The translations under genes and the position numbers were made by a program. From the NCBI GenBank assembly GCA_029776225.1, contig JAKOTR010000053.1, forward strand, positions 62,001 to 126,000: DNA of 64,000 bases, read 5' to 3'. The notes beneath the pieces were generated by a model, which had not been told where the DNA came from, did not search any database, and saw only the letters and a list, made by a program, of their open reading frames with translations. The DNA comes from Acidobacteriota bacterium (GTDB lineage: Bacteria; Acidobacteriota; Terriglobia; Bryobacterales; Bryobacteraceae). Positions 56,804-57,713 of this stretch are shown here, piece by piece; position 1 is the first letter of the stretch, and each line of letters starts with the position of its first letter.

Positions 56804-56997
56804 CTATTCCACCGCCTCGGCCGTGTAGCGGTTTGACGAACTCCAGAGCAGGTAGCCGGCGTAGCGGTCTCCGAGGGCGTCGCGCACGGCCTGGATCTGC
56901 GCCTTGACCATGTCCGAATCGTATTTCGCGCCGAGGCTGAAGTCCTGAAGCCAAGGACGGAGTTTCACCTTGCCGGACAGGTTGAGCGCTTCCAGCC
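56804..56997. repeat. 194-bp direct repeat, copy A
   Basis: 184 of 194 bases are identical to copy B (57520-57713), counted by hand, with no gaps. It reproduces the last about 65 codons and stop of the glycoside-hydrolase-like gene. Homology ends abruptly after TTCCAGCC in both copies. The GIY-YIG nuclease gene lies between them. Confidence 0.9.
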
Positions 56998-57013
56998 AAG
57001 GTGGTTGCTTCAA
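56804..57013 (-). pseudogene. Duplicated C-terminal fragment of the glycoside-hydrolase-like gene
   Basis: An open frame of 69 codons matches the end of the 57520-58800 protein at 62 of its last 65 residues (LEALNLSGKVKLRPWLQDFS onwards) after five unrelated residues (MKQPP). It has no signal peptide, catalytic part or ribosome site, so it is very likely a non-functional remnant of the duplication that flanks the GIY-YIG gene. Confidence 0.85.
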
Positions 57014-57080
57014 TTGTATCTATGCCCTAAGTTAAGCATTGATATACTTCCCCCAATCACGCTGCCCGCGTAGGACACCG

Positions 57081-57365
57081 ATGAAGGTCATTTATAAGAT
57101 CACGTATCCGAACGGAAAAATCTACATCGGCAAAGATTTGACTGACAGCATCAACTATTTCGGGAGCGCCGATCCCGCTCTTATCGCAGCCGATTTCACA
57201 AGAGAGCAACGGAAAGACTTCACGATTCGGAAAGAGATCCTCTGGGAGTCCGAAACCGCTACCGACGCCGAAGTGAATCAAAAGGAGATCGAGTTCATAC
57301 GGGCGTTCCGATCCAACGACCCAACTGTAGGCTATAACAGGTGGCCAAAGCTCAAAACGGGCTGA
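57081..57365 (+). CDS. Small GIY-YIG nuclease-like protein
   Basis: 94 residues from ATG 57081, with AGGA 6-7 bases upstream. The N-terminus [20 protein letters not shown] is the GIY-YIG motif pair of the nuclease superfamily, and KEIEFIRAF near residue 75 supplies the expected Glu. There is no second DNA-binding domain. GC is about 50%, well below the flanks, a sign of transfer. It sits between two 194-bp copies of the neighbouring gene's 3' end, so it is probably the mobile part of a small insertion. The cut site is unknown. Confidence 0.75.
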
Positions 57366-57519
57366 ACCACTCCAACAGCCAGCGGAGTTCCACCGGCTGT
57401 CGGTCGCCTCACTGAGGAAGCAAGGCATCGTTACCCGAACGCGGTTATACACGCTAGCTTGGGATACTGGACCCCGGCGCTTCCGGGCTGGCGCCCTGTC
57501 CGCTAACACCTCTCCCAGA
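57366..57519. other. 154-bp spacer between the GIY-YIG gene and repeat copy B
   Basis: No gene. ACAGCC (57375-57380) and GGCTGT (57395-57400) form an inverted repeat, a possible terminator or binding site for the GIY-YIG unit. GGCGC/GCGCC arms lie near 57476-57495. The stretch belongs to the inserted part, because it is not repeated elsewhere in the window. Confidence 0.45.
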
Positions 57520-57713
57520 CTATTCCAGCGCCTCGGCCGTGTAGCGGTTTGACGAACTCCAGAGCAGGTAGCCGGCGTAGCGGTCTCCGAGGGCGTCGCG
57601 CACGGCCTGAATCTGCGCCTTGACCATGGCGGAATCGTATTTCGCGCCGAGGCTGAAGTCCTGGAGCCAGGGGCGGAGTTTCACCTTTCCGTCCAGGTTG
57701 AGCGCTTCCAGCC
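57520..57713. repeat. 194-bp direct repeat, copy B
   Basis: The 3' end of the intact glycoside-hydrolase-like gene; partner of copy A at 56804-56997 (about 95% identity). Ten mismatches are spread along the unit, several falling in third codon positions, so the duplication is recent but not fresh. Confidence 0.9.

Follow-up and report, generated by a model that had tools for sequence, protein, structure and literature searches.

Organization of the locus

Two copies of the 3′ end of a gene for a DUF4015 protein bracket a small GIY-YIG nuclease gene in the 64 000-nt stretch of DNA analysed here (hereafter the window). The question raised by this arrangement is whether it represents a mobile element that brings along a replacement end for its target gene, as proposed in a first-pass annotation made from the sequence, or whether the duplication is particular to this site. 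The features of the locus are listed in Table 1. The repeat search agreed with that annotation on the two copies, called A and B: they are direct repeats of 194 nt each, 95% identical, gap-free and with a common endpoint, and they form the sole direct-repeat family of at least 60 bp listed by the repeat finder in the 64-kb window. Their similarity starts abruptly within the DUF4015 gene and stops exactly at its stop codon; the 10 mismatches lie at offsets 20, 21, 25, 40, 43, 49, 82, 84, 103 and 185 in the sense of the gene. The best matches of the DUF4015 protein within the bacterial order show 53-56% identity.

Table 1. Features of the locus with the duplicated gene end (window coordinates)
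Feature	Position	Strand	Description	Basis
Copy A	56804-56997	-	orphan 3′ end; 63 codons plus TAG, open frame, gene body absent upstream	
Unit between the copies	56998-57519		522 bp	
Left spacer	56998-57080		copy A to GIY-YIG gene; 48% GC	
GIY-YIG nuclease gene	57081-57365	+	stand-alone; 94 aa; antisense to DUF4015	
Right spacer	57366-57519		GIY-YIG stop to DUF4015 stop; 63% GC	
Copy B	57520-57713	-	working 3′ end of the DUF4015 gene (last 194 bp)	repeat and ORF comparison
DUF4015 gene	57520-58800	-	putative glycosyl hydrolase; intact; 426 aa	Pfam PF13200, E 7.6e-92

The gene between the copies had been described as a low-GC GIY-YIG gene, and both composition and fold search (see below) agree: the GC content of the ORF is 49%, against a window average of 63%, and its GC3 is 65%, against 81% for DUF4015. 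Only short, chance-level matches to the left and right spacers were found in 257 genomes of the order. An inverted repeat that had been pointed out in a spacer does not stand out, since the 157-nt stretch that contains it folds like its dinucleotide shuffles, 76 of 200 of which did as well (z = -0.28). Rfam gave zero matches at E up to 1 in the interval 55500-59000; this empty search and the chance-level folding of the spacer speak against a structured RNA or an intron at the locus.

The genome is a 115-contig draft, perhaps metagenome-derived, and a divergence of 5% is what two strains could give, so that the duplication might be an assembly artefact, with the DUF4015 ends of two strains strung together. 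Against this, both junctions are unique sequence devoid of N and lie inside a contig reaching past 578 kb, and the junction between copy A and the spacer has no long shared word. We consider such an artefact highly improbable.

The GIY-YIG protein and its distribution

The 94-amino acid protein has a GIY-YIG fold with the conserved Y...Y...E...N residues: Y5, Y15, E69 and N86 are each conserved in at least 88 of 90 aligned rows. Its AlphaFold model reached a pLDDT of 90 (alignment of 43 members), and Foldseek returned viral GIY-YIG and intron endonucleases (30 viral matches at E <=0.001, the best at 3.2e-9). Matches to homing endonucleases in PHROG were weak, as was the label of homing endonuclease given by PADLOC; the Pfam search was empty, and the PDB provided neither a structural match at E 0.001 or better nor a sequence relative. 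The protein consists of the catalytic domain alone and lacks a DNA-binding module of its own.

A scan of genome contigs led to 187 relatives, the best 80 of which are 69-84% identical to the window copy and come from many phyla and from archaea; others were found in 6 plasmid and 3 mycobacteriophage records (42% identity) and in 5 viral contigs. Close to the host the gene is rare. Of 101 relatives, 3 had a match, the own genome counted, and one of these matches was partial (42 residues, interrupted by a stop); across the phylum the figure was 3 of 396 genomes, again with the own genome counted. At DNA level, at least two further members (G248, G353) were found in the order. Two family queries had no DNA match in 20,395 E. 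coli records. Exactly one match per genome was present in 19 of 19 genomes. On a tree of 90 rows and 97 columns (2 of 87 inner branches starred), the phylum labels change 44 times (13 rows unlabelled), where at least 19 changes would be needed and shuffled labels average 54.8. Horizontal transfer of the family is likely on these sequence comparisons, by which the nuclease gene is sparse, strikingly conserved, horizontally spread and mobile. The mobility claimed for the locus at first pass is upheld to that extent, for the gene itself, on account of its patchy and cross-phylum occurrence and its foreign composition.

Genomic settings of the relatives

Two sites could be compared with empty counterparts. 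A type I-C operon of Halomonas (L028) has the GIY-YIG gene between cas8c and cas7, and both flanks were matched without it in 10 of 89 other genomes of the genus. In the five of these empty sites that were read, 32-43 bp separate the flank matches: the insert approximates a bare ORF, and the junction is altered over a few tens of bases, without duplication of the target. On the Vibrio plasmid pSEA2 (L102, 2751-4009), a 1.26-kb insert made up of the GIY-YIG gene and a 111-amino acid ORF splits a methyltransferase/DUF4942 gene that pAM7 and pIFO15640 carry unbroken. The insert is bounded by TGTCG ends and contains three 17-bp sites at a spacing of 54-56 bp; a target duplication matching at 4 of 5 bp was recognized by eye, and we take the insert to be a non-autonomous Tn7-like element. 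In both comparisons (n = 2), insertion thus occurred without a long target duplication.

The other settings are diverse. The gene is found between cas7 and cas4 in a Chloroflexi locus (L076), directly before a histidine-biosynthesis gene in Rhodopseudomonas, and between terL and portal in a viral contig (L186), an interval which is a usual spot for freestanding GIY-YIG homing endonuclease genes. L028 and L076 are CRISPR operons of two phyla in which the gene occupies two different gene junctions. A neighbour protein is shared by 18 locus pairs, several of them close kin, and the commonest neighbour families are Mrr_cat (4), DUF4357 (4) and Cas7 (2), with 109 of 148 neighbour proteins scanned. 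No recurrent cognate target was found across independent hosts, the insertion sites being mostly non-recurrent.

Some recurrences were seen on a smaller scale. L033, L060 and L080 have a neighbour in common, Mrr-like in L060; in L023 and L029 the family member adjoins a second, different GIY-YIG-like protein (by reading); in L045, L056, L085 and L188 it adjoins a DUF4357 protein, several of these genomes being unrelated, and L188 carries two tandem family members. In a comparison aimed at defence-island enrichment, PADLOC returned 227 families among 109 (of 148) near proteins and 112 families among 87 (of 136) distal ones, both sets being hand-picked subsets that differ in length.

The idea that the loci have in common a non-coding end or motif marking a transposable unit was also discarded, since flanks across genera share little outside the ORF: two cross-genus pairs have 34-39 bp in common ahead of the start codon, and longer sharing concerns kin pairs, L023/L029 (a neighbour gene) and short intergenic repeats. 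REP-like GTAGGG repeats, for which L026 had provided the lead, were likewise rejected as a partner of the family, TAGGGTG being near the gene in just 6 loci.

These settings bear on homing as the origin of the arrangement in the window. The nuclease would have cut a GIY-less DUF4015 allele near 56997/57713, repair would have copied the donor 3′ end together with the nuclease gene, and the distal side would have been closed by end joining. The modelled fold, which is that of viral homing and intron endonucleases, is consistent with this, as is the crowding of 6 of the 10 A/B mismatches by the internal junction, within the first 50 nt of the 194 (P = 0.023, post hoc), where they resemble a recoded cut site. 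However, the protein is a bare 94-amino acid catalytic domain, few neighbour genes recur among the loci so that no common target is seen, and neither of the two empty sites elsewhere has a co-converted or duplicated target end. Homing is moreover unnecessary, given spread by integron cassette, Tn7-like insert and phage, and we judge it improbable.

It is quite improbable, too, that the nuclease drives its own capture by cutting a gene in a recipient that lacks it, with one-sided invasion of the donor and distal end joining. If this were true, the scar would be either a clean insertion the size of the ORF between two genes or, as in the window, a replaced gene end beside the remains of the old one, depending on the position of the homology, and the occurrence of a bare 94-amino acid gene in many phyla, integrons, transposons, phages and operons would be explained.

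Link with integrons

The gene in an integron cassette is preceded by a GTTRRRY box, and a complementary box is expected at its stop. GTTNNNN sequences before the ORF were therefore paired with NNNNAAC sequences at the stop in 89 loci, and the result was compared with 300 random re-pairings. Perfect pairs (7/7) were present in 7 loci (L020, L024, L049, L051, L055, L063 and L068); re-pairing gave 0.8 on average and never reached 7. Pairs of 6 of 7 or better were found in 15 loci versus 8.9 by re-pairing, so that only perfect pairs carry signal. An integron integrase scored over the cut-off in all five perfect-box genomes tested (L024, L049, L055, L063 and L068) and in 9 of the 45 other genomes tested (chance of the contrast about 0.001, calculated by hand; the scan took in 50 of 80 loci). 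In L063, the GIY-YIG gene, surrounded by the boxes GTTAGGC and GCCTAAC, adjoins the integrase itself (NCBIfam, E 1e-178), and attC-like repeats were recognized by eye in L069. A generic attC heuristic was abandoned, as it did not separate family loci from 1887 control stretches. A GIY-YIG-domain protein, which may or may not belong to the present family, is also reported to be encoded by cassette orf6 of an Aeromonas integron (PMC10609294).

The unit in the window could be read as a cassette, or the remnant of one, inserted at a secondary site, the 194-bp duplication being unrelated. It does have candidate boxes: GTTAAGC lies 50 nt ahead of the ATG, and GCTGAAC overlaps the stop. Their complementarity of 6/7 is at chance level (8.9 of 89 loci reach at least 6). 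No integron integrase over the cut-off was found in the window genome, which is 97.7% complete by estimate: at E 0.001 the integron-integrase model had 9 matches there, but it also had matches in 14 of 14 control genomes. The attC scan did not discriminate, and we know of no case in which cassette insertion produced a 194-bp duplication. This reading is very improbable for the window.

Direct repeats around family members

If a replacement gene end defined a class of element, duplicated gene ends should be found around other members. Direct repeats within 800 bp of the gene were counted in 81 loci, including the window, with at least 400 bp on each side. Any such repeat was present in 13 of 81 loci versus 55 of 1051 control placements in the same loci; for repeats of at least 45 bp the numbers were 7 of 81 versus 29 of 1051, and with 90% identity required as well, 3 of 81 versus 2 of 1051. 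A looser definition of the repeat gave 11 of 81 loci and 32 of 589 controls. This mild excess counts against the plain reading that there is nothing here.

The nature of the repeats differs, however, from that in the window, which alone among the seven long-repeat loci has a duplicated end of a neighbouring gene with an orphan copy. By inspection, the other long repeats resemble attC/integron or IS sequence in L049, L068 and L069, intergenic repeats in L026 and L092, and a tandem GIY-YIG copy in L188. When the scan was extended to 3 kb, L031, L042 and L052 turned out to be flanked by related genes rather than by orphan ends, the repeat of L047 was mostly intergenic, and no gene end was recognizable in L014, L019, L046 and L051. 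(In L014, a 65-bp repeat of 75% identity, at 736-799 and 2027-2090, stands ahead of both the GIY-YIG gene and another, partial match to the family, located at 2159-2254.) At protein level, similar stretches on both sides were found in 12 of 80 loci and 22 of 339 control placements, most of them being repeats already named, related genes (L042, L052) or L080 (43 amino acids, 42%).

The search that the first-pass annotation had suggested, for other GIY-YIG genes flanked by duplicated gene ends, thus came up empty among the 80 other loci (at least 45 bp, within 800 bp). Its proposal of a replacement 3′ end is compatible with the window, where the intact target and the old end left as debris fit the insertion of such a unit; as an element class it finds no support, a duplicated neighbour-gene end having been seen in 1 of 81 loci. 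From these comparisons, a class of element defined by a replacement gene end is not supported. The duplication looks like a one-off scar rather than the hallmark of a new element, since elsewhere the nuclease gene is cargo of known mobile elements without such a duplication.

Origin of the duplicated gene end

Because relatives elsewhere insert without a long target duplication, the duplication in the window needs a cause specific to the event. Of the 10 differences between copies A and B, 6 are synonymous and 4 non-synonymous (Ka/Ks 0.19; Fisher P = 0.012), a share that is unlikely if all changes were neutral (P = 0.015). The pattern is as if most of the divergence had arisen while both copies were coding, which favours two alleles from different lineages. 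The same preference comes from the residues: copy A reads AEAVE at the end where copy B and the four closest orthologues have L, and copy B reads DSAM where copy A and three of the four closest orthologues have D before M, so that A and B are each at odds with the closest orthologues at one place, with the other copy agreeing there or nearly so.

The explanation to which we incline, at somewhat less than an even chance, is that incoming DNA replaced the 3′ end of the DUF4015 gene, to which it was joined by homology at one junction and illegitimately at the other. The 94-amino acid GIY-YIG gene would have arrived as cargo on a fragment that also bore a homologous DUF4015 3′ end. This fragment would have recombined by homology with the resident gene, leaving a seamless junction somewhere upstream of 57713, and its other side would have been joined illegitimately inside the old 3′ end, at 56997/56998. 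DUF4015 would thereby have been kept whole with the replacement end B, and the displaced end A would remain as debris beyond the insert. Homology-facilitated illegitimate recombination of this kind has been reported for competent bacteria and for conjugation in E. coli (PMC3240628).

A donor, that is a DUF4015 gene beside a GIY-YIG gene and lacking copy A, was found neither in the 257 genomes of the order nor among the GIY-YIG loci compared. Neither of the two genomes from the same genus (completeness 88% and 77%) has the DUF4015 gene, and they consequently offer no empty site by which the change could be polarised; the searches turned up no relative with the locus in which the case named as refuting in the first-pass annotation, the nuclease gene at this place and no repeats, might have been seen. 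With neither donor nor empty site found, we infer the direction of the replacement, with B and not A as the incomer, along with the one-sidedness of the homology and a nuclease that did not drive the event. It also speaks against this explanation that no similarity extends past the stop codon, where orthologous alleles at the Ks of 0.15 between A and B might show some; one junction therefore lies at the stop codon under any model.

The alternative that has to be weighed most carefully is a local event, in which the 522-bp GIY-YIG unit was inserted at the stop codon of DUF4015, 194 bp of the target were duplicated and copy A then drifted; the duplication could have come about by a staggered break with fill-in or by template switching in repair. 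Gap-free copies of equal length flank exactly one insert, as such an event would leave them, and a substitution pattern with A drifting and B constrained is not rejected (P = 0.11). Insertion at a gene junction is also seen in Halomonas. It is unlikely nonetheless, though deserving of some weight: none of the 80 other family loci has such a duplication (at least 45 bp, within 800 bp), and the share of synonymous differences is high for changes that were all neutral.

We regard the local duplication as a probable scar of recombination. The window holds a genuine insertion of a mobile nuclease gene whose scar is particular to this locus, and it gives no evidence for a new class of element that replaces gene ends.

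Comparison with known systems

Phage freestanding GIY-YIG homing endonucleases (Seg/I-Tev type; group I intron) resemble the window family in fold, in the viral Foldseek matches and in the terL/portal setting of L186; the family differs from them in having the catalytic domain only, mostly non-recurrent sites and a single copy in each of the 19 genomes. With integron gene cassettes it shares the perfect boxes of 7 of 89 loci, one of them beside IntI, whereas in the window genome no integrase scored over the cut-off and no attC is convincing. Elements of the prophage type, such as e14 in icd, restore the 3′ end of their target gene. The present locus is similar in that its target is kept whole by a diverged replacement 3′ end and the old end is displaced, but its 522-bp unit contains no integrase and the arrangement is absent from the 80 other family loci compared. 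Products of homology-facilitated illegitimate recombination (PMC3240628) have one homologous and one illegitimate junction, as proposed here; the window event differs in being natural and in being reconstructed from one genome. Finally, a non-autonomous Tn7-like element, the Vibrio pSEA2 insert, carries the same GIY-YIG family as cargo, but the repeats listed for the window include no terminal repeats at the ends of 56998-57519, and neither TGTCG ends nor 17-bp sites were seen.

More interesting than the duplication is the family itself, a stand-alone GIY-YIG cargo nuclease that uses many vehicles and occurs in integron-like settings, in a Tn7-like insert, on plasmids, in viral contigs, in CRISPR operons and beside Mrr-type restriction genes. 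Such a gene either serves a selected function, in defence or DNA exchange, or promotes itself, and its relatives are clean material for deciding between the two.

Elsewhere in the window, a selenocysteine tRNA (anticodon tca; 49736-49833, minus strand) directly adjoins a dnaE2-like gene (49890-53024), behind which lie ORFs resembling imuB and imuA, named by reading the ORFs and not by model.
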